Shown here: piece after piece, positions 3,066-60,967 of the stretch
Layout of the letters: each line of letters opens with the position of its first letter
Numbering within the stretch: position 1 is the stretch's first letter
Assembly: GCF_023517775.1 (NCBI RefSeq)
Contig: NZ_CP082904.1
Location: 2,232,001 to 2,296,000 of the forward strand
Direction: 5' to 3'
Length of the DNA: 64,000 bases
Source of the DNA: Mixta hanseatica
GTDB taxonomy: Bacteria > Pseudomonadota > Gammaproteobacteria > Enterobacterales > Enterobacteriaceae
Position numbers and translations under genes: made by a program
The notes under the pieces: generated by a model
Database searches by the model: none
The model's input: only the letters and a program-made list of their open reading frames with translations
Told to the model about the DNA's origin: nothing

Positions 3066-4583
3066 TTACTGAAGTTTTACCATTGCTCGCATTAACAAAC
3101 GCAGCAAACGCAGGCGTACGCGCATAAAACGGTGCTGCAGAATAACCGCCGCCTCGCCTTTGACGCCAAAGCGCAGCGTGACATCATTGCCGGGATGCCA
3201 GGCAGGCCAGGTTGTTTCGCCCGCCAGTTGATGCGAGAACTCTGTCGCGTCATGAGCGAAACGCAGCCAGTATTCGCTGATGCGGCGAGCAAATTGACGA
3301 TCGCCATCGGTAAACGGGCGATCCGCCAGCTGTGGGTTTTCCGCATTCATGGTCTCCATGACGTAAGGAATCTCGTTGCCGTGCCAGCTGCCGTAACGGC
3401 AGAGGTCGCGTGAATTTTCCGATACGTAATCAAAATAGTAGCGCCAGCCCGGTACGCCGCGTCGATGCTGCGCCTGTACCGCCAGCCAGGTAATGGTACC
3501 GAAAGCCATATCCCGCGCCACTTTGCGCCCCAGCCGATGGTCATCATGTTCGTCATACAGCGATTTGATCAGCTTTAACAACAGCGGACGGCGCTGGCGT
3601 AAACGGGTAATGGTGCTGGTGGCATCAACGCCAAAATATTCCAGCACGCTGGCTTCATCGCTGTTGTAACCGATCATCAACGGATGCCGATGCTGGCGAG
3701 CGGCGGCAAACACCTCGACCACCGGCTTCGGCAGCACCCGATCGCCGGCAATTGCGACCGGGCCGTTGCCCAGATGCGGTGGCAATGACCAAAAACTGTC
3801 GGCGGGCAACGCGCGCAGATCTGCCGCGCTGGCCTGTTCCAGCCCCAGATGATGCGCCACCGCCACGCCGTTGTTCAGCGCCTCATCACGCTTTTTATCC
3901 GGCAGGCTGTAAGCGCTTTGCACGATCCCTTTATGAAACAGCCCGTCCGCCAGCGGCGAGGCGAACAGCGACAGGACGCTGCGCCCGCCGGAGGATTCGC
4001 CGAAAAGGGTCACGTTGCGTCGATCGCCGCCAAACGAGGCGATATTGCGCTGCACCCACTGCAGCGCGGCGATCTGATCGAGCAGCGCGAAATTATTGAT
4101 CGCTTCGCCAGGCGGAAACTCGGCATCCAGTGCCGGATGGGCAAAAAATCCCAGGTGGCCGAGGCGATAATTAAGCGTGACCACCACTACGCCGCGCGCC
4201 GCTAACGCTTTACCGTTGTAGGGGGTCAGGCTGCCAGCGCCGATGGTAAAGCCGCCGCCGTGGATCCAGACCATCACCGGCAGCGGGCTCGACGGTTGCA
4301 CGTCGGGCGACCAGACATTGAGATAAAGGCAATCTTCGCTCAGGTTGCCTGGATCGCCGCCGCCCGCCAGTACGCAATATTCACGCTGCTGCCAGCTGGC
4401 GTTGCCCCACTGCGTGGCGTCCCGCACCTCCTTCCACGGAATGGCGGGTTTGGGCGCGCGCCAACGCAGCGGACCAACCGGCGGCGCCGCATAAGGAATA
4501 CCTTTGAAAACAAAAATGCCGTCATCAACTGCGCCGCGCAATGCACCTTCTGCCGTGTGTATTCTTAAAGATTCATTCTTCAT
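3066..4583 (-). CDS. Type-B carboxylesterase
   Basis: A cytosolic alpha/beta-hydrolase of the carboxylesterase/lipase type B family, 505 residues. The oxyanion-hole HGGG is at about residues 108-111 and the nucleophile elbow GESSGG puts the catalytic serine at about 197. An acidic residue in the GYNSDEASVLEYF region and a histidine in SWHGNEIPY are candidates for the rest of the triad. No signal peptide is visible. ATG 4583 (MKNESL) is chosen over an in-frame TTG at 4595 because GGA lies at suitable spacing. It probably hydrolyses carboxylic esters; the physiological substrate is unknown. Confidence 0.9.
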   Translation of the reverse strand: MKNESLRIHTAEGALRGAVDDGIFVFKGIPYAAPPVGPLRWRAPKPAIPWKEVRDATQWGNASWQQREYCVLAGGGDPGNLSEDCLYLNVWSPDVQPSSPLPVMVWIHGGGFTIGAGSLTPYNGKALAARGVVVVTLNYRLGHLGFFAHPALDAEFPPGEAINNFALLDQIAALQWVQRNIASFGGDRRNVTLFGESSGGRSVLSLFASPLADGLFHKGIVQSAYSLPDKKRDEALNNGVAVAHHLGLEQASAADLRALPADSFWSLPPHLGNGPVAIAGDRVLPKPVVEVFAAARQHRHPLMIGYNSDEASVLEYFGVDATSTITRLRQRRPLLLKLIKSLYDEHDDHRLGRKVARDMAFGTITWLAVQAQHRRGVPGWRYYFDYVSENSRDLCRYGSWHGNEIPYVMETMNAENPQLADRPFTDGDRQFARRISEYWLRFAHDATEFSHQLAGETTWPAWHPGNDVTLRFGVKGEAAVILQHRFMRVRLRLLRLLMRAMVKLQ

Positions 4584-37144: not shown

Positions 37145-37171
37145 AAAAAAAAAGCCGGCTTTAAGGCCGGC
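37145..37171 (-). terminator. Intrinsic terminator of fnrS
   Basis: On the minus strand GCCGGC (37171-37166) pairs with GCCGGC (37159-37154) around CTTAAA, followed by nine Ts. A textbook terminator; it doubles as the Hfq-binding tail of the sRNA. Confidence 0.95.
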
Positions 37172-37266
37172 GTCGTACGAATCAATTGTGCTATGCAGTA
37201 ATTCAAAAAAAGGAAGTAAGACAATATGGAGCGCAACGCCCATCGCTTGACGTTGCATTCACCTGC
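37145..37266 (-). ncRNA. fnrS: Small RNA FnrS
   Basis: The minus strand from 37266 reads GCAGGTGAATGCAACGTC, then GATGGGCGTTGCGCTCCATA, TTGTCTTACTTCC, and an oligo-T linker before the terminator. This is nearly identical to E. coli FnrS, including its 122-nt length and the two mRNA-pairing loops. FnrS is Hfq-dependent, made without oxygen under FNR, and represses aerobic-metabolism and oxidative-stress mRNAs (sodB, maeA, folE and others in E. coli). It lies next to zntB, the same neighbour as in E. coli. Confidence 0.95.
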
Positions 37267-49006: not shown

Positions 49007-49672
49007 TTATTCGCTGCGGTTCATTTTCGCTTTTAATGCCGCCAGCTGTTCGCCGATTTCATCGTCCGCTTTCAGTTCGGCAAACTGCTGATCCAGCGTT
49101 TTGCTTTTACCAAAACGATGGCTTTCCGCTTCCGCTTCCATATGGTCGATACGGCGCTCAAAAGATTCAAAGCGCGCCATGGCATCATCCAGCTTGCCGC
49201 TATCCAGCTGACGGCGCACATCGCGAGAAGAGGAAGCCGCCTGGTGACGCAGCGTCAGCGCCTGTTGGCGCGCACGGGTTTCACCCAGCTTTTTCTCCAG
49301 TTCGGCAATTTCGCCTTTCATCCGTGCCAGAGTTTCATCAATCTGCGTCACTTCCTGCTGCAGTGAAGCAACCAGTTCGGTGAGCTTCTGTTTTTCAATC
49401 AGCGCGGAGCGTGCCAGATCGTCTTTGTCCCGACGCAGCGCCAGCTCAGCCTTTTCCTGCCATTCATTCTGCTGGATTTGCGCCTGTTCAATACGACGCA
49501 GCAGCTGTTTACGTTCCGCCAGGCCGCGTGCAGAGGTGGAACGCACTTCAACCAGCGTATCTTCCATTTCCTGAATCATCAGGCGCACCATTTTTTGTGG
49601 ATCTTCCGCTTTATCCAGCAGCGTGTTGATGTTGGCGTTTACGATATCGGCGAAACGAGAAAAAATACCCAT
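49007..49672 (-). CDS. pspA: Phage shock protein A
   Basis: PspA, 221 residues, ESCRT-III/IM30 family: an N-terminal amphipathic helix ([20 protein letters not shown]), then a long coiled coil with heptads to residue 190. It binds PspF and holds it inactive; under membrane stress it is released, assembles on the inner membrane and maintains the proton gradient. Expressed from the sigma54 promoter at 49723-49738. Confidence 0.97.
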
Positions 49673-52735: not shown

Positions 52736-52824
52736 AAAAAAAAGCCCGCACAGGCGGGCAAGTAATACTGGAAGCAATGTGAGCAATGTCGTGCTCTTCT
52801 TCGGTAGAGCCACCGTTGAAGCGC
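52736..52824 (-). ncRNA. ryhB: Iron-stress small RNA RyhB
   Basis: The minus strand carries the RyhB core exactly (AGCACGACATTGCTCACATT then GCTTCCAGTATTACTT at 52795-52761), followed by a GCCCGC/GCGGGC terminator (52744-52759) and eight Ts. The 5' end near 52824 starts GCG and folds a small CGGT/ACCG hairpin, giving about 89 nt as in E. coli (90). RyhB pairs with mRNAs of iron-using proteins (sodB, sdh, iscS and others) with Hfq when iron is low. A TACTAT -10, TTTACA -35 (52831-52860) and Fur-type boxes lie upstream. It sits between hiuH and sapA. Confidence 0.93.
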
Positions 52825-53022: not shown

Positions 53023-54651
53023 ATGTTGAAATTATTATCCAGGCTGCTGTCAGGCGTGTTGCTGTTCAGTGCGGCCAGCCATGCCGCGACGCCAGAAGAT
53101 ATTCGTAACGGCGGTTTCGTCTATTGCGTCAGCGGCGTCATGAATACGTTTAACCCACAGCTGGCCAGTAGCGGGCTGGTGGTTGATACGCTTTCCGCGC
53201 AGCTTTATGATCGTCTGCTGGATGTCGATCCCTATACCTATCGTCTGATACCCGAACTGGCGGAGCGTTGGGAAACCCTGGATAACGGCGCGACCTACCG
53301 CTTTCATTTGCGCCATCATGTCTCTTTTCAAAAAACCGCCTGGTTTACCCCCGACCGCGCCATGAACGCCGATGACGTGGTGTTCAGCTTTGCGCGCATT
53401 TTCGATCGTCACCATCCGTGGCATAACGTTAACGGCGGCGACTATCCCTATTTTGATAGCCTGCAGTATGCCGACGCGGTGAAAAGCGTTAAAAAAATTA
53501 ATAACGATACCGTCGAGATCCGTCTGAAAAGTCCGGATGCCTCTTTCCTGTGGCATCTGGCTACCCACTACGCGCCGGTATTATCTGCAGAATATGCTCA
53601 GCAGCTGACGGCGCGCGATCGCCAGGAAGAGATGGATCGCCAGCCGGTCGGCACCGGGCCTTTTATGCTAAATGAATACCGTGCCGGGCAGTATGTACGG
53701 CTGGCACGTAACCCGCACTACTGGAAAGGCGTGCCGCGGATGCCGCAGGTGGTGATTGATATGGGCGTAGGCGGCACCGGCAGGCTATCGAAACTGCTGA
53801 CCGGCGAATGCGATGTACTGGCCTATCCCGCCGCCAGCCAGCTTACCATTCTGCGTGACGACCCGCGTCTGCGGCTGACGCTGCGTCCGGGAATGAATAT
53901 CGCCTATCTGGCATTCAATACCAACAAAGCGCCGCTGGATCGCGTTGAGGTGCGTCAGGCACTGGCGCTGGCGATTAATAACGAACGTCTGATGGAGTCA
54001 ATCTATTACGGTACGGCAGAAACCGCCGCCTCGGTGCTGCCGCGCGCCTCCTGGGCTTATGACAGCGATGCCAGGATCACCGAATACAATCCCGATAAGG
54101 CGCGGGAAATGCTTAAACAGCTGGGAGTGGAGAATCTGGAACTGACGCTGTGGGTGCCTTCCGCCTCGCAGTCCTGGAACCCCAGCCCGTTGAAAACCGC
54201 CGAACTGATTCAGGCCGATCTGGCGCAGATTGGCGTAAGCGTCTCTATCGTGGCGGTAGAGGGGCGTTTTCAGGAGGCGCGTCTGATGCAAATGAACCAC
54301 GATCTAACGCTGACCGGCTGGGCGACCGACAGTAACGACCCGGACAGTTTTTTCCGTCCGCTGCTCAGCTGCGCAGCGATTAATTCCCAGACGAACTATG
54401 CGCACTGGTGCAATACTGAATTTGACGCGGCGCTACAGCAGGCGCTGCTTTCGCAACAGCTGGCGTCGCGCATTGAGCATTACGACCGCGCCCAACAGAT
54501 ACTGGCACGCGAGCTGCCGGTGCTGCCGCTCGCCTCTTCTCTGCGTTTGCAGGCCTACCGACACGATATACAGGGGCTGGTGTTAAGCCCGTTTGGCAAT
54601 GCCTCTTTTGCGGGCGTTCATCGCAACAACGGCGAGGAGTCGAAACCGTGA
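53023..54651 (+). CDS. sapA: Peptide-transport periplasmic protein SapA
   Basis: SapA, 542 residues, SBP family 5 (DppA-like). Signal peptide residues 1-21 (cleavage after SHA). Family region [15 protein letters not shown] and two mature cysteine pairs ([32 protein letters not shown]). First gene of the sap ABC transporter, linked to antimicrobial peptide resistance and, in E. coli, putrescine export. It overlaps sapB by four bases. Confidence 0.96.
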
Positions 54652-55613
54652 TTATCTATACGCTGCGCCGCCTGGTGCTGCTGGTGGTGACGCTGTTTAT
54701 GCTGACGCTGGTGGCCTTCAGCCTGAGCTACTTTACGCCGCATGCGCCGCTGCAGGGCGCTTCACTGCTGGATGCCTGGTGGTTCTGGTTTACCGGCGTT
54801 TTCCAGCTTGATTTTGGCGTCTCCAGCATTAACGGACAATCGATCAATTTACAGCTGCGTGAGGTTTTTCCCGCCACGCTGGAGCTCTGTTTGTTGGCTT
54901 TTAGCGTGGCGCTGCTGGTGGGCATCCCGCTGGGGATTATCGCCGGCGTGATGCGTAATAAGTGGCAGGATCGGGTGATTAGCGCCTTTTCCCTGCTTGG
55001 TTTTTCGATGCCGGTATTTTGGCTGGCGCTGCTGCTGACGCTGTTTTTCTCGCTGAATCTCGGCTGGCTGCCGGTTAGCGGCCGTATCGATCTGCTGTAT
55101 CAAATGAAATCGGTAACCGGCTTCGCGCTGATTGATGCATTTATCAGCGACTCGCCCTGGCGCCGGGAGATGCTGACCAATGTGCTGCTGCATATGGTGC
55201 TGCCGGTCACCACGCTGGCAATTGCGCCCACCACGGAAGTGATCCGTCTGCTGCGCAACAGCACCAGCGAGGTGATTGACGCCAATTATATTAAAGCGGC
55301 CGCTACCCGTGGGCTATCACGCTTTACGGTGATCCGACGTCATGTGCTGCATAATGCGCTGCCGCCGGTCATTCCGCGTCTGGGCCTGCAGTTTGCCACC
55401 ATGCTGACGCTGGCGATGATTACCGAAGTGGTGTTTAGCTGGCCGGGTTTGGGCCGCTGGTTGATCAACGCTATTCGCCAGCAGGATTACGCCGCAATTT
55501 CCGCCGGCGTGATGGTGGTGGGTAGCCTGGTGATCCTGGTCAATGTGTTATCCGACATCCTTGGCGCCATGACAACACCGCTGAAGCATAAAGAATGGTA
55601 TGCGCTGCGATAA
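54648..55613 (+). CDS. sapB: SapB inner-membrane permease
   Basis: SapB, 321 residues, ABC permease of the DppB type with six membrane helices. The EAA loop is [20 protein letters not shown]. Starts at GTG 54648, overlapping the sapA stop (GTGA). Complete to the conserved end HKEWYALR. In most enterobacteria sapC follows at once; here 2.66 kb of unrelated DNA intervenes. Confidence 0.97.
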
Positions 55614-55747
55614 AAGCATTTCGCTGCTTTAAAGCACAGAAATGTACCCTGTGTGGTACATGCCCTTTCCCCAATGAGTTCAAGAGGGGCTGCACCCGGG
55701 CAGGCTACAGCATCGTAATTTTTATACTGCGGCATTTTCACCGTCTC

Positions 55748-55753
55748 TATAAT
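55748..55753 (+). promoter_or_regulatory. -10 element upstream of the MDR oxidoreductase gene
   Basis: A perfect TATAAT about 100 bases before the ATG; the -35 region (TACTGC) is poor, suggesting activator dependence. Two direct GTTCAAC copies lie just downstream in the leader. Confidence 0.4.
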
Positions 55754-55856
55754 GGTTCCATGTAACAAAAAAGACCGGGTTCAACAAAGTGACCCTATGA
55801 TTTATGTTGTTCAACCGGTTATTACATAAAACTTATGCTGTTACAGGAGATTTATC

Positions 55857-56870
55857 ATGAAAGCAGTAACGCTCAAAGCGCCCGGCGGTCTGGAAAACAT
55901 TACCGTGTCAGATATCGCTGATCCGGGCCGGCCCGGCAAAGGCGAAATTCGAGTTGCTGTTAAAGCCAGCTCCCTGAATTATCATGATTTGATTGTTGCA
56001 ACTGGACAGTTTCCCACCAAAGACGGCCGGATCTTGCTGTCAGATGGTGCGGGCATCGTAGAAGAAGTGGGAGAAGGCGTTGAAGCGTTCAAAGTGGGCG
56101 ATCATGTAGTCTCCACATTTTTCCCCATCTGGCTGGCAGGCAGGCCTATACCCGCTGTGAGCGGCTTTACCCATACGCCCGGCGACGGTGTTGATGGCAT
56201 GGCCAGTGAATATGTTGTACGTTCGGAAAGTGCCTTCACTCATGCGCCGAAGGGATGGAGCCACACAGAGTCAGCGACCATCACCACCTCTGCCTTAACG
56301 GCCTGGCGGGCGCTCGTAACAGATGGCCACCTTAAAGCAGGAGAAACGGTGCTGGTTCAGGGTACCGGTGGAGTTTCCATCGCGGCCCTGCAAATAGCTA
56401 AAGCAATGGGGGCCAAAGTCATTGCTACCTCTTCCTCCGATGAAAAGCTTGCCTTTGTCCGGCAGCTGGGCGCTGATGAGACCATCAATTACAGAACTAC
56501 GCCTGAATGGGGAGATAAAGTTCTCGAAATGACGCAGGGGTTTGGCGTAGACCACGTGGTGGAAGTGGGCGGCCCGGCAACATTGAATGAGTCCCTGAAA
56601 TCCATCAAAGTGGGCGGTCATATTGCGCAGATTGGTATTCTTTCAGGCGATGAGGCCGCCGTGTCGGTATTTTCTCTTCTGGCGAAACAGGTACAGATCA
56701 AAGGCGTGATTGTGGCAAGCCGCCAGGATCAGGCTGATTTTGTCAAAGCCCTGGAGATAATGAACCGCAAGCCGGTTATTGACCGTACCTTCAAATATGA
56801 AGCGCTCAGCGAGGCCTTCACCTACCTGCAAAGCGGTGCCCACCTGGGTAAAATCTGCGTCGAGTGGTGA
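55857..56870 (+). CDS. Zinc-independent-type MDR alcohol dehydrogenase/quinone oxidoreductase
   Basis: A 337-residue medium-chain dehydrogenase/reductase. GroES-like N-terminal domain (about 1-140), then a Rossmann domain with VLVQGTGGVSIAALQIAKAM at about 164-184. The catalytic-zinc cysteine of classic alcohol dehydrogenases is replaced (SSLNYHDL), and no structural zinc cysteine cluster is present, so it is probably an NADPH quinone or enone reductase. AGGAG precedes ATG 55857. Intact cargo of the sapB/sapC insertion; substrate unknown. Confidence 0.85.
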   Translation: MKAVTLKAPGGLENITVSDIADPGRPGKGEIRVAVKASSLNYHDLIVATGQFPTKDGRILLSDGAGIVEEVGEGVEAFKVGDHVVSTFFPIWLAGRPIPAVSGFTHTPGDGVDGMASEYVVRSESAFTHAPKGWSHTESATITTSALTAWRALVTDGHLKAGETVLVQGTGGVSIAALQIAKAMGAKVIATSSSDEKLAFVRQLGADETINYRTTPEWGDKVLEMTQGFGVDHVVEVGGPATLNESLKSIKVGGHIAQIGILSGDEAAVSVFSLLAKQVQIKGVIVASRQDQADFVKALEIMNRKPVIDRTFKYEALSEAFTYLQSGAHLGKICVEW

Positions 56871-57022
56871 TATTGCTGGCGGTAAGGAATCACTTTCCTT
56901 GCCGTAGCCGGAAGCTACTGCCGAAACGATTTTGTACGGTTTAAACCATTGGCAACGGCAAATCTGGCACCGACACCCCCAGCCAGGCCAGCTCCCGCTA
57001 CTGGAGAGCTGGCTGTGATTCG

Positions 57023-57530
57023 TTACTCCCTGGCGGAAAGAGCCCGGCGAGAAGAGGCACGGAAAGCCTGTCTGATGTCCCAGATACTCTCTTCCCGTCC
57101 TACCGCAAGGGCAAACAGCACCCCGCCTACAATGGAGAACAGGCCCAGAACCCCCCATGCCAGCGTCATATCGGTACCGCCACCCAGATGCTTGAGATAG
57201 CCGGCAACCAGCGGGCCGCCAAACTGTCCAATGAAATTGCTGCATGCACCTACGAATGCCACCGCAGGTACCGCTTTTCTCGTGGGCAGGATTTCAGTCA
57301 GCCGGACATAAACTAACGGCACAAGCATCTTCATTGTCAGGCCGACAAACATAAATAGTGCAATCTGCACCCAGTAATATGACAGCGGAACACTGGCCGC
57401 AGCCGACAGAGCGATACCGCATAAAACAGTAGGAATAGCCAATAAGCATCAGCCATAGCGCAGGTATTTTCAGGATGGCCCATAATGGGTCATTCTCCTC
57501 ATCACAGACCATCAATATCATCAACGGAGT
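57023..57530 (-). pseudogene. MFS transporter fragment (C-terminal, frameshifted)
   Basis: Two minus-strand frames together encode only the C-terminal half of an MFS transporter: DPLWAILKIPALWLMLIGYS in one frame, then AIPTVLCGIALSAAASVPLS and LTEILPTRKAVPAVAFVGAC through to the end in another. They are joined by an indel near 57425-57445. The N-terminal six helices are absent. It is a dead remnant, presumably once paired with the neighbouring oxidoreductase gene. Confidence 0.75.
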
Positions 57531-57559
57531 TGACCACGTTGAGGCGCATGCGAATGCGC

Positions 57560-57582
57560 AAAAAAACCGCCCGGAGGCGGTT
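57560..57582 (-). terminator. Terminator of the small H/CxxC protein gene
   Basis: On the minus strand AACCGCC (57582-57576) pairs with GGCGGTT (57571-57565) around TCCG, followed by a run of Ts. It overlaps the end of the gene. Confidence 0.85.
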
Positions 57583-57802
57583 AAATTTTTATGCGATATT
57601 TTTTCGGATTATCGAAGCATTCTGAACAGGGAGCGGTAGCAACATGCCGCAACCGAGACACTTTTACTGCGTCCCGCTCGTGGTAAAAGGTTCCCAAAAA
57701 ATCCCGTTTACCCCAGGCAGGCAGCAACGCGCAGCCTTCAGAATGGACCTGATATTTAATCGTCTGCTGTGATAGTTTCTCAACGTAATAAAACTTCGCC
57801 AT
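57581..57802 (-). CDS. Small protein with HxxGC and CxxC motifs, 73 residues
   Basis: No named family is recognised, though the pattern VHSEGCALLP, then LGTFY, then a distal CSEC pair recalls short hypothetical proteins seen scattered in many bacteria. H and three C residues could bind one metal. AGGGAAAAAG is an adequate ribosome site for ATG 57802 (MAKFYYVE); a frame extension to 57844 is unlikely. It has its own strong terminator, so it is probably expressed. Part of the sap insertion. Confidence 0.6.
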   Translation of the reverse strand: MAKFYYVEKLSQQTIKYQVHSEGCALLPAWGKRDFLGTFYHERDAVKVSRLRHVATAPCSECFDNPKKYRIKI

Positions 57803-57844
57803 CTTTTTCCCTTCATTGTTTTTGTAACAAAAAAAGGTAGTCAT

Positions 57845-58272
57845 AAAATAAAAATCGGCCCTAAATTTTCACCTATCAAATCGATAGCTTTTATCTAAAA
57901 AGATGAACTGACATGACAGGCATGGCGTGTGCTGGGTCCTTTATCGCTCTTGAATTTCAAGGATTCGTTGCTGCCGCCGAACTCTCGCCGGAGACAATGC
58001 TACAGAGGGAGTTTCACCTATGCTAAGCTGTACAGGTTTACCCTGCTATCGGTAGCGGTAAAGGAATGAAGCCTTCCTAAGGGGAGTGGCTGCCAGCACC
58101 TGTATACTCCCGGTCAAACTATACAACAGGGTAGATAAAAACCCTGAATCAGGACGACGCAAACCCAATCGCGCTAATGCATCCCAATCCAATGAAACGA
58201 CTTAAACGATTGATATGAAGTCAAAAAATAAAGAAAATCAACACACGTTCGAACAGCCTACAGTGGGGATGT
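57845..58272. other. Non-coding tail of the sap insertion, stem-loop rich
   Basis: 428 bases without a supportable gene. A cluster of stem-loops sits at 58031-58146: TACAGGT/ACCTGTA (58031-58037 with 58098-58104) encloses TTTACC/GGTAAA with an inner GCTA/TAGC, and GGAA/TTCC; CAGGGT/ACCCTG (58127-58146) follows. It could be a structured RNA, an end of the inserted element, or chance. Any promoter for sapCDF should be here or in the last 70 AT-rich bases. Confidence 0.4.
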
Positions 58273-59163
58273 ATGCCCTCCGATAATATTTACGCCGAGA
58301 AGCGTCTTCCCAGCCCGTTTCGCTATACGTGGCGGCTTTTCTATCACGACACCAGCGCAATGGTGGGTTTTTACGGCTTTATCGCTCTGCTGCTGCTCTG
58401 CCTGTTTGGCGGCTGGCTGGCACCGTACGGCCTTGACCAGCAATTTCTGGGCTATCAGCTGCTGCCGCCCTCCTGGTCGCGCTATGGCGATGTTTCGTTT
58501 TTTCTCGGCACCGACGATCTCGGCCGCGACGTGCTGAGCCGTTTACTGAGCGGCGCAGCACCGACCGTAGGCGCCGCGCTGCTGGTGACGCTGGCGGCGG
58601 CGCTCTGCGCGGTAGTGCTGGGCGTACTGGCGGGGATAACGCGCGGGTTACGCTCAGCGGTGATGAATCACATTCTGGATACGCTGCTCTCGATCCCGTC
58701 CCTGCTGCTGGCGATCGTGGTGGTGGCGTTTATTGGGCCAGGCCTGGGACACGTGATGCTGGCGGTCTGGCTGGCGCTGCTACCGCGTCTGGTACGGGCG
58801 ATTTATACCGCCGTGCATGATGAGCTGGAAAAAGATTATATTGTCGCCGCGCGTCTGGATGGGGCCAGTAACAAGAATATTCTCTGGCATGCCATTCTGC
58901 CCAATATTCTGCCGCTGCTGGTGAGTGAATTCACCCGCGCGCTCTCTATGGCCATTTTGGATATTGCGGCGCTCGGCTTTCTCGATCTCGGCGCGCAGTT
59001 GCCCTCGCCGGAATGGGGTTCGATGCTGGGCGATGCGCTGGAGCTGATCTACGTCGCCCCCTGGACAGTGATGCTGCCTGGCGCCGCGATTATGCTTAGC
59101 GTTTTGATCATCAATCTGTTGGGCGACGGAATTCGCCGCGCCATCGTGGCGGGAGTGGAATAA
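58273..59163 (+). CDS. sapC: SapC inner-membrane permease
   Basis: SapC, 296 residues, ABC permease of the DppC type with six membrane helices and the EAA loop [20 protein letters not shown]. The N-terminus [20 protein letters not shown] aligns with E. coli from the first residue, so the insertion did not clip it. A GGGG tract is the only ribosome site. Stop overlaps sapD start (TAATG). Confidence 0.96.
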
Positions 59164-60155
59164 TGCCGTTACTTGATATTCGTAACCTGACCATTGAATT
59201 TATGACTGCCGATGGGCCGGTCAAGGCGGTCGATCGCGTTAACCTGACGCTGAACGAAGGGGAAATTCGCGGGCTGGTGGGGGAATCCGGCTCCGGTAAG
59301 AGCCTGATTGCCAAAGCTATTTGCGGCGTGACCAAGGATAACTGGCGCATCAGCGCTGACCGTATGCGCTTTAATGACATTGACCTACTGCGCCTTTCGC
59401 CGCGTGAGCGTCGTCGCATCGTTGGCCATAATGTCTCGATGATTTTTCAGGAGCCGCAATCCTGTCTCGATCCCTCCGCCCGCGTAGGTCGTCAGCTGAT
59501 GCAGGCGATCCCCGGCTGGACCTGGAAAGGCCGCTGGTACCAGCGCTTTCGCTGGCGCCATGCGCGCGCGATTGAATTGCTGCATCGCGTCGGCATTAAA
59601 GATCATAAAGATATTATGCGTAGCTATCCTTATGAGCTGACCGAAGGGGAATGCCAGAAGGTGATGATTGCGATAGCGCTGGCCAACCAGCCGCGTCTGC
59701 TGATCGCCGACGAGCCGACCAATGCCATGGAGCCGACCACCCAGGCGCAAATTTTCCGCCTGCTGAGTCGCCTTAACCAGAACAACAACACCACGATTTT
59801 GCTGATCAGCCACGATTTGCGCACCATGAGCCAGTGGGCCAACCGTATTAATGTACTTTACTGCGGACAAACGGTAGAAACCGCCGCCAGCCAGGATTTG
59901 ATCGCCACGCCGCACCACCCTTATACCCAGGCGTTGATCCGCGCCATGCCCGATTTCGGCAGCGCACTGCCGCATAAAAGTCGGCTGAATACCCTACCGG
60001 GAGCGATCCCTTCGCTAGAGCATCTGCCTATCGGCTGTCGGCTTGGTCCACGCTGCCCTTATGCGCAGAAAAAATGCATCGAAACACCGCGCCTGGCAGG
60101 GGCGAAAAATCATCTGTTCGCCTGCCACTTCCCGCTGAATATGGAGAAACCCTGA
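59163..60155 (+). CDS. sapD: SapD ATPase subunit
   Basis: SapD, 330 residues, ABC ATPase of the peptide/nickel type. Walker [10 protein letters not shown]-loop FQEP, Walker [14 protein letters not shown]-loop ISHDL. The signature reads LTEGE in place of LSGGQ, as in E. coli SapD. The C-terminal oligopeptide-type extension with [11 protein letters not shown] cysteines suggests an Fe-S or disulfide motif typical of DppD/OppD. SapD also binds ATP for Trk potassium uptake in E. coli. Confidence 0.96.
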
Positions 60156-60967
60156 TGGTTGAAACGCTGCTGGAAGTGCATAACCTCAGCAAAACCTACC
60201 GCTATCGCACCGGCCTGTTTCGTCGTCAGCACGTTGAGGCGGTTAAAGATGTCAGCTTTACCCTGCGCGAGCGGCAGACGCTGGCGATTATTGGTGAAAA
60301 CGGCTCGGGAAAATCGACGCTGGCGAAAATGCTGAGCGGTATGGTCGAGCCCAGCGCCGGCGAGATGGTGATTAACGATCGTCCGCTGCGCTACGGCGAC
60401 TATGGCTTCCGCAGCCAGCTGATCCGCATGATTTTCCAGGACCCGTCCACCGCGCTTAATCCCCGCCAGCGTATCGGCCACATTCTTGATTTTCCGCTGC
60501 GTCTTAACAGCGATCTTGATGCGCCCGCGCGTGAAAAACGCATTAACGCCACGCTGCGTCAGGTGGGCCTGCTGCCCGATCACGCCGCTTACTATCCGCA
60601 TATGCTGGCACCGGGACAGAAGCAGCGCGTTGGCCTGGCGCGGGCGCTGATCCTGCAACCGAAAGTGATTATCGCCGATGAGGCGATGGCGTCGCTGGAT
60701 ATGTCGATGCGTTCTCAACTGGTTAACCTGCTGCTGGAGCTGCAGGAAAAGCATGGGCTTTCCTATATTTTTGTCACCCAACATATCGGCATGATGAAAC
60801 ATATCAGCGATCAGGTGCTGGTGATGCATCAGGGCGAAGTAGTCGAGCGCGGCGGCACCGCCGACGTGCTGGCTGCGCCGCTACATGATTTAACCCGGCG
60901 GATGATCGCCAGCCACTTCGGCGAGGCGCTAACCGCGGACGCCTGGCGGCGCGATACGCCGGTTTAA
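60155..60967 (+). CDS. sapF: SapF ATPase subunit
   Basis: SapF, 270 residues, ABC ATPase. Walker A GENGSGKST, Walker B VIIADEAMASLDMS, H-loop TQHIG. The signature is LAPGQ, a departure from LSGGQ. ATG 60155 overlaps the sapD stop by one base; an upstream in-frame ATG at 60074 lies inside sapD and is not used. Last gene of the operon. Confidence 0.96.
   Translation: MVETLLEVHNLSKTYRYRTGLFRRQHVEAVKDVSFTLRERQTLAIIGENGSGKSTLAKMLSGMVEPSAGEMVINDRPLRYGDYGFRSQLIRMIFQDPSTALNPRQRIGHILDFPLRLNSDLDAPAREKRINATLRQVGLLPDHAAYYPHMLAPGQKQRVGLARALILQPKVIIADEAMASLDMSMRSQLVNLLLELQEKHGLSYIFVTQHIGMMKHISDQVLVMHQGEVVERGGTADVLAAPLHDLTRRMIASHFGEALTADAWRRDTPV

Follow-up and report, generated by a model that had tools for sequence, protein, structure and literature searches.

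The sapABCDF operon of Mixta hanseatica is divided between sapB and sapC by an insert of 2.66 kb (55614-58272). We analysed it within a window of 64,000 nucleotides (contig NZ_CP082904.1, positions 2,232,001 to 2,296,000 of the forward strand; coordinates below are those of the window unless a locus is named). All five sap genes are intact:

53023..54651, plus strand: sapA (NCBIfam SapA 1076.9 bits, cut-off 560)
54648..55613, plus strand: sapB, with the C-terminal end YALR-stop (NCBIfam SapB 621 bits, cut-off 432)
58273..59163, plus strand: sapC (NCBIfam SapC 573.8 bits, cut-off 379)
59163..60155, plus strand: sapD (NCBIfam 725 bits, cut-off 627)
60158..60967, plus strand: sapF (NCBIfam 546.4 bits, cut-off 452)

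The initial annotation of this DNA had described sapB and sapC as both complete and as separated by an oxidoreductase gene, a dead major facilitator superfamily (MFS) gene and a small gene for a protein with H and CxxC residues. This description was confirmed, as the two border genes form full-length frames, each above its NCBIfam cut-off, and all three intervening genes were found, the second as a fragment.

Borders, integrase remnant and other occupied sites

The following features mark the edges of the insert and its sapC-proximal part:

55598..55613, plus strand: attL, left copy of a 16-bp core at the end of sapB, the stretch in which sapB and sapC overlap in empty relatives
58271..58286, plus strand: attR, right copy of the core at the start of sapC, identical to the core of the empty site in genome G004
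57968..58069, minus strand: phi80-family tyrosine integrase, reduced to 34 codons from the N-terminal region and interrupted by one stop (tblastn)
58090..58270, plus strand: phage attachment arm between the integrase and sapC, which aligns with the integrase-sapC spacers of loci with intact integrases

Both halves of the sap region, with sapB and with sapC, could be placed, by manual reading of match positions, in 29 of 60 genomes (including that of the window). The two genes overlap in 26 of them, and three carry an insert: the window, G006 (same genus) and G029 (another genus, with sapB and sapC on two contigs). The uninterrupted overlap in 26 of the 29 placeable genomes upholds the earlier view that the operon was split by an insertion and that the layout is not ancestral. 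An assembly join is unlikely, given that the window lies inside a 4.3-Mb contig and that the same class of insert begins at the identical base before sapC elsewhere. Of 5426 Escherichia coli genomes, 5371 gave a match, and 5363 of these have a contiguous junction (at least 80% of the query at a single location). In the empty relative G005 (L004, near 1504) the junction is altered and sapB, by sequence reading, ends earlier.

In relatives, positions 951-966 and 3624-3639 of the query from the window region map to one shared 16-bp stretch. The core was recognised from this overlap; a direct-repeat search did not contain it among the 20 of 39 repeat families shown. Its two copies in the window differ at 2 positions, both synonymous in sapB. 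The borders of the insert thus coincide with the sapB/sapC overlap and the core is duplicated, as in a remnant at a sapB-sapC attachment site. Because the core is the stop/start overlap itself, integration leaves sapB complete at attL and sapC complete at attR.

This arrangement recurs at other occupied sites; 21 occupied sites in all were compared (18 loci of the named collection, L070, G006 and the window). Four loci were left out because of a contig end beside the integrase (L090) or because they occupy other sites (L093, L094 and L095), as were L100-L103, whose integrases are 31-33% identical and have no sapC. The core precedes sapC at the 20 occupied sites besides the window and is duplicated at both ends in all 10 of these in which both are in view; attL encodes YALR-stop in 11 of 11 sites with both ends in view (the window and 10 others).

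The initial annotation had also stated that no integrase is left and that the insert ends in a structured non-coding tail. The first statement is refuted by the fragment at 57968-58069, which is 67.6% identical to the integrase of G029 (tblastn E-value 5e-10 against three sequences and 1e-8 against a larger set). As for the tail, approximately 470 bp lie between the small gene and sapC; they comprise the 5' piece of the integrase gene and the attachment arm and match no Rfam family at gathering score. Rfam searches of the insert at gathering and relaxed thresholds gave nothing credible. In G029, a full tyrosine integrase (Phage_integrase and Arm-DNA-bind_3 domains) stands immediately before sapC, and the fragment in the window has the orientation of the intact integrases, reading away from sapC, at a similar distance from that gene. 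A phi80-type integrase remnant therefore adjoins sapC, as expected of a prophage remnant at the sapB-sapC site. The complete integrase of an active element is absent from the insert (34 codons, one stop), and the genome itself gave no match to this integrase type at an E-value of 1e-60 or better. The remnants of the window and G006 share 81% DNA identity over 96 columns; the internal stop in the window replaces a tryptophan codon that is still present in G006, so it is not a lesion common to both. Two GTGTACAC palindromes bracket the probable integrase start in most of the aligned arms, and are possibly operators or arm-type sites.

Integrases of this type are spread well beyond the genus. Among 392 genomes of the family, 37 gave a match at an E-value of 1e-60 (41 matches in total), and for 8 of the 30 matches examined sapC lies in the 1.5 kb of flanking DNA; the integrase is open in 6 of these and broken in 2. 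The named collection contains 26 loci with a relative of the integrase, 18 of them beside sapC (sapB and sapC matches at 50% identity or more). Classed by the integrase frame and not by whole-prophage content, these loci include (i) open integrases in Serratia, Rahnella, Ewingella, Mixta, Lonsdalea (two), Enterobacter, Citrobacter, Escherichia albertii and Pantoea brenneri, and (ii) 8 broken ones in Klebsiella oxytoca, two Salmonella subspecies, Hafnia, P. conspicua, P. agglomerans, an Erwinia metagenome-assembled genome (MAG) and Winslowiella iniecta. For 7 of the 8 broken forms sapB was found in the flank, with inserts of 1.7-5.5 kb and differing cargo. The W. iniecta insert (L110, 5888-12141), with sapB outside the flank, probably includes a TetR-type regulator along with several oxidoreductase-like genes, and the scar of Salmonella diarizonae (L099, 7134-8126) a frame presumably resembling a metalloprotease-type secreted effector. 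In E. albertii the integrase is intact, yet no more than about 7.2 kb separates sapB from sapC. A megablast search with that integrase matched 1 of 5426 E. coli genomes, beside sapC; in E. coli NZ_LS992185.1 (L192), an integrase of this type beside sapC is followed by genes for RecT (annotated as frameshifted) and RecE. A search of viral contigs for the pattern of an occupied site returned 10 loci. Nine lie on contigs that had been found before; the other one (L201) has both the integrase and the leader frame described below.

Cargo, history and origin of the insert

The genes carried by the insert are as follows:

55857..56870, plus strand: intact gene of the zinc-type alcohol dehydrogenase/quinone oxidoreductase family (Pfam ADH_zinc_N and ADH_N)
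57023..57442, minus strand: MFS transporter gene fragment (partial match to MFS_1, positions 64-176 of 347)
57581..57802, minus strand: gene for a 73-amino-acid protein with H and CxxC residues, matching the phage protein family phrog_4298 of unknown function (E-value 3.2e-8)

The oxidoreductase gene has a ratio of nonsynonymous to synonymous substitution rates (dN/dS) of 0.085 against its homologue in G001 and of 0.063 against that in G007. An identity as a PIG3-like protein or acryloyl-CoA reductase was considered on grounds of similarity and rejected; the 25 of 28 models shown all fall below their NCBIfam cut-offs, and for this reason no specific function is claimed. The MFS fragment scores 33.1 bits against a Pfam cut-off of 33.4. 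For the 73-amino-acid gene, dN/dS is 0.067 against G005 and 0.096 against G007, and it could not be computed against G001. No phage structural gene was found in 55614-58272 in the open reading frame list or by Pfam and phage protein family searches. The open frames inside the inserts of the window and G006 are different.

Taken together, the borders and the integrase piece lead us to conclude, with a probability of about 0.92, that the insert is what remains of a prophage, or of an integrative element resembling one, integrated by a phi80-family tyrosine integrase at a core of approximately 15-16 bp in the sapB/sapC overlap. The integrase piece, the arm and the cargo are observed, and from these remains the event itself is reconstructed. 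The integrase would have recombined where the sapB stop and the sapC start overlap, parting sapAB from sapCDF with both border genes whole, and the element would afterwards have shed nearly all its genes apart from the integrase piece, the sapC-side arm and a few cargo genes.

Several observations weigh against this conclusion. In a tree of four shared genes (4089 columns), ((window,(G004,G005)),G006), the empty genomes G004 and G005 are nested inside the clade of the window and G006, so that either two integrations or one integration and a precise loss are required. The tree is a local one, built from sapA, sapB, sapC and the gene at 49007-49672; support is 100% for the window with G004 and G005, 100% when G006 is added and 59% for G004 with G005. 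The oxidoreductase is atypical for a phage, and copies of it occur elsewhere in G001 (86% identical), among ordinary-looking chromosomal genes, and in G007 (85%); part of the cargo may accordingly be a later arrival. Moreover, with just 34 integrase codons and no structural gene left, a prophage and a satellite are indistinguishable in the window.

The last point bears on the possibility that a satellite or genomic islet with the same type of integrase, and not a full phage, left the remnant. We regard this as unlikely, even though the lack of structural genes agrees with it, as do the short E. albertii element with its intact integrase and the published Salmonella cargo islet among the known sapB-sapC insertions; two phage records with the integrase beside sapC carry recombination genes, one of them also CI, and the small cargo gene of the window matches a phage protein family. 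Far less probable is placement of the segment by a transposon or through recombination (illegitimate or homologous), with the integrase piece as a bystander. The resemblance of the cargo to chromosomal genes of sister species is what speaks for such an origin, which is contradicted by the duplicated core and disfavoured by borders lying exactly on the sapB/sapC overlap, by the presence of the core before sapC in 20 other sites (at both ends in 10) and by the orientation and distance to sapC that the fragment shares with intact integrases.

With regard to the rest of the window, Rfam matches were obtained for frnS, a fumarate/nitrate reductase regulator small RNA (37150-37266, minus strand), and RyhB (52736-52798, minus strand), and a tRNA search of the window found none.

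The sapC start and expression of sapCDF

Three features bear on the expression of the separated genes:

58215..58286, plus strand: leader reading frame of 23 amino acids, ending YALR-stop and overlapping the sapC start by 14 nt
58262..58270, plus strand: strong Shine-Dalgarno-like sequence for sapC (-5.6 kcal/mol), found in both scars of the genus (window and G006)
57565..57582, no strand assigned: bidirectional intrinsic terminator, a computed prediction

At empty sites, sapC has one invariant Shine-Dalgarno sequence, AAGGA, within the sapB codons K-E-W (-6.2 kcal/mol in 12 of 12), and integration detaches it from sapC. At 18 of the 21 occupied sites the Shine-Dalgarno sequence of sapC is weaker than -4 kcal/mol, the three stronger ones being those of E. 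albertii (-4.4), the window (-5.6) and G006 (-6.9 kcal/mol). The predicted folding of the sapC start averages -6.6 kcal/mol at occupied and -10.8 kcal/mol at empty sites.

An ATG-started frame in the arm runs through four sapB-type codons to a stop inside the sapC start at all 21 occupied sites. Its length is 19 codons at 11 sites and 9 codons at 7, with 12, 18 and 27 codons (the last from an earlier ATG) at one site each; first-order Markov resampling yields a leader of at least 8 codons by chance in 7-24% of cases per site. In the other two frames the longest run is 5 codons, reached at a single site. Among 11 representatives below 65% identity, the leader frame is present in 11 and each of the other frames in none. 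A further 88 loci were searched, 13 of which have the core in reach; they represent 10 distinct contexts (viral contigs and one E. coli genome), some identical to sites among the 21, and all have the leader. Of the remaining 75, 64 extend past the integrase match by 108 bases or fewer. L113, with 1003 bases there, gave no match to the core pattern; its core is presumably of Ewingella type. Literature searches of open-licence full texts, one of them aimed at such a frame and judged by titles and the opening of abstracts, found no report of it, which is a weak sign that it is unpublished.

On the basis of these sequences, we infer that the leader would replace sapB in carrying reading ribosomes through the sapC start, and that in this genus a direct Shine-Dalgarno sequence would have superseded it. 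The short frame of the arm, ending in sapB-like codons across the sapC start, would substitute for the reading of sapB, and both scars of the genus would rely instead on the strong Shine-Dalgarno sequence right before sapC. The broader proposal, that phages of this integrase subfamily carry an arm-borne substitute for the end of sapB which keeps sapCDF translated in the lysogen, that dead elements keep the leader and that the Shine-Dalgarno sequence took over in this genus, is put forward tentatively, its chances being somewhat short of even.

Slightly better placed, at a little under an even chance, is the view that the leader frame is fortuitous, a by-product of arm conservation, with the sequence kept for the binding of the integrase or host factors and not for translation. 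This view is supported by the relatedness of the integrases and by conserved arm motifs, among them the repeated GTGTACAC; since the arms are related by descent, the leader counts carry less weight. A single leader reaches its own length in 4-18% of resampled sequence, one of the control frames is closed by a TAAA motif common to the arms (most sites have 3 open codons in it), and the leader's own Shine-Dalgarno sequence is weak on average (mean -2.3 kcal/mol versus -1.0 in plain shuffles) and nil in the window and G006 (+0.3 and +0.4). The frame is nevertheless kept below 65% identity, even where its length changes in frame (Serratia) or its start codon differs (Erwinia MAG), and stops over the last 18 codons number 6 in the leader frame against 53 and 37 in the other two.

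Selection on sapCDF itself was assessed by comparison with G004 and G005: sapC has dN/dS values of 0.056 and 0.023, respectively, and sapD has values of 0.019 and 0.002, which argues for lasting constraint on both genes, these pairwise values spanning both lineages and speaking to constraint and not to the present level of expression. The initial annotation had offered two routes to sapCDF transcription, a promoter gained in the insert or transcription running through it, and had left reduced expression aside. The predicted terminator at 57565-57582 argues against simple read-through into sapCDF. Transcription from a new promoter inside the insert, which we rate as nearly an even prospect, would fit the strong constraint downstream of this terminator, and in SpyCIM5 a decayed int gene is described as supplying such a rescuing promoter (PMC3430984). 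However, no promoter-like site stood out beyond chance: 2 were found toward sapC in 57450-58400 versus 1.2 expected from shuffles, and a scan of the 150 bp before sapC in the 21 sites, with approximate promoter weights, gave a median p of 0.55 and a best p of 0.17 for the window.

These scans also weigh against the explanation given above for the insert and the sapC start, as do three further points. Differences in the leader are spread over the codon positions as 79/96/103 (16 pairs), with no clear third-position excess, so the frame is preserved but not visibly the peptide. The sapC starts of the window (-10.2 kcal/mol) and G006 (-14.9 kcal/mol) have a tighter predicted fold than the average occupied site, which would hinder initiation. 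Finally, a Salmonella islet at the same junction reportedly lowers transcription of sapD and sapF, so the operon is not unharmed by insertion there; by analogy, expression of sapCDF may be lower in M. hanseatica than in an empty strain.

Comparison with known systems

The phage phi80 integrates in the tonB region. Its integrase, which has a different attachment site, is 49.8% identical to that of G029. Closer sisters, 67-68% identical, adjoin a yciA-like gene (L094, 5339-7218; L154, 2339-4218); the L094 site was confirmed as tonB-yciA by E. coli matches and L154 was assigned by eye. The integrase subfamily therefore seems to have changed its attachment site.

The sapB-sapC junction is a recurrent phage entry site, and the split operon can be explained as its footprint. 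One report places four prophages of Klebsiella pneumoniae (ST16-OXA48phi5.1, ST11-VIM1phi8.2, ST846-OXA48phi9.2 and ST974-OXA48phi18) between intact sapB and sapC genes (PMC7371120). In our comparison the integrases of all four records are approximately 69% identical to that of G029; in the two records examined for it the integrase stands immediately before sapC, and one of them reads sapC, integrase, Bet, Gam and CI. These are prophages, whereas the window holds a remnant only, with other cargo. Large Stx2a prophages of Shiga toxin-producing E. coli of CC119 resemble the window in site but not in size; they are reported to occupy sapB, where their 13-bp attB overlaps coding sequence of sapC (PMC10132054). 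Closer in size is the artB islet of Salmonella (GICT18/1), which two papers place between sapB and sapC in representative serovars (PMC7845599; also PMC3176500). It is small and, by the literature, at the same junction, but with different cargo; in S. Typhi it is described as lowering sapD and sapF transcription and protamine resistance, an effect reversed upon excision (PMC7845599).

A parallel for an element that parts co-transcribed genes is that of the SpyCI islands, phage-like elements which split mutS-mutL at a gene start; in SpyCIM5, a promoter in the decayed int reportedly keeps the downstream genes expressed in one strain (PMC3430984). Rescue there depends on a promoter within int, whereas for the window we propose a leader frame and see no promoter signal. 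An active operon switch of the SpyCI kind was considered and rejected, since the insert contains no complete integrase and the genome none of this type at 1e-60.

The event itself is of an ordinary kind with good precedent; what is new is one more genus, an identified integrase remnant and the leader frame. The locus illustrates that overlapping stop and start codons can serve as an attachment site that spares both genes, and that inserts labelled as lacking an integrase may be recognised by a few dozen codons beside the attachment core. Should the leader act as proposed, it would be a simple case in which a phage maintains the function of the host operon that it has entered.

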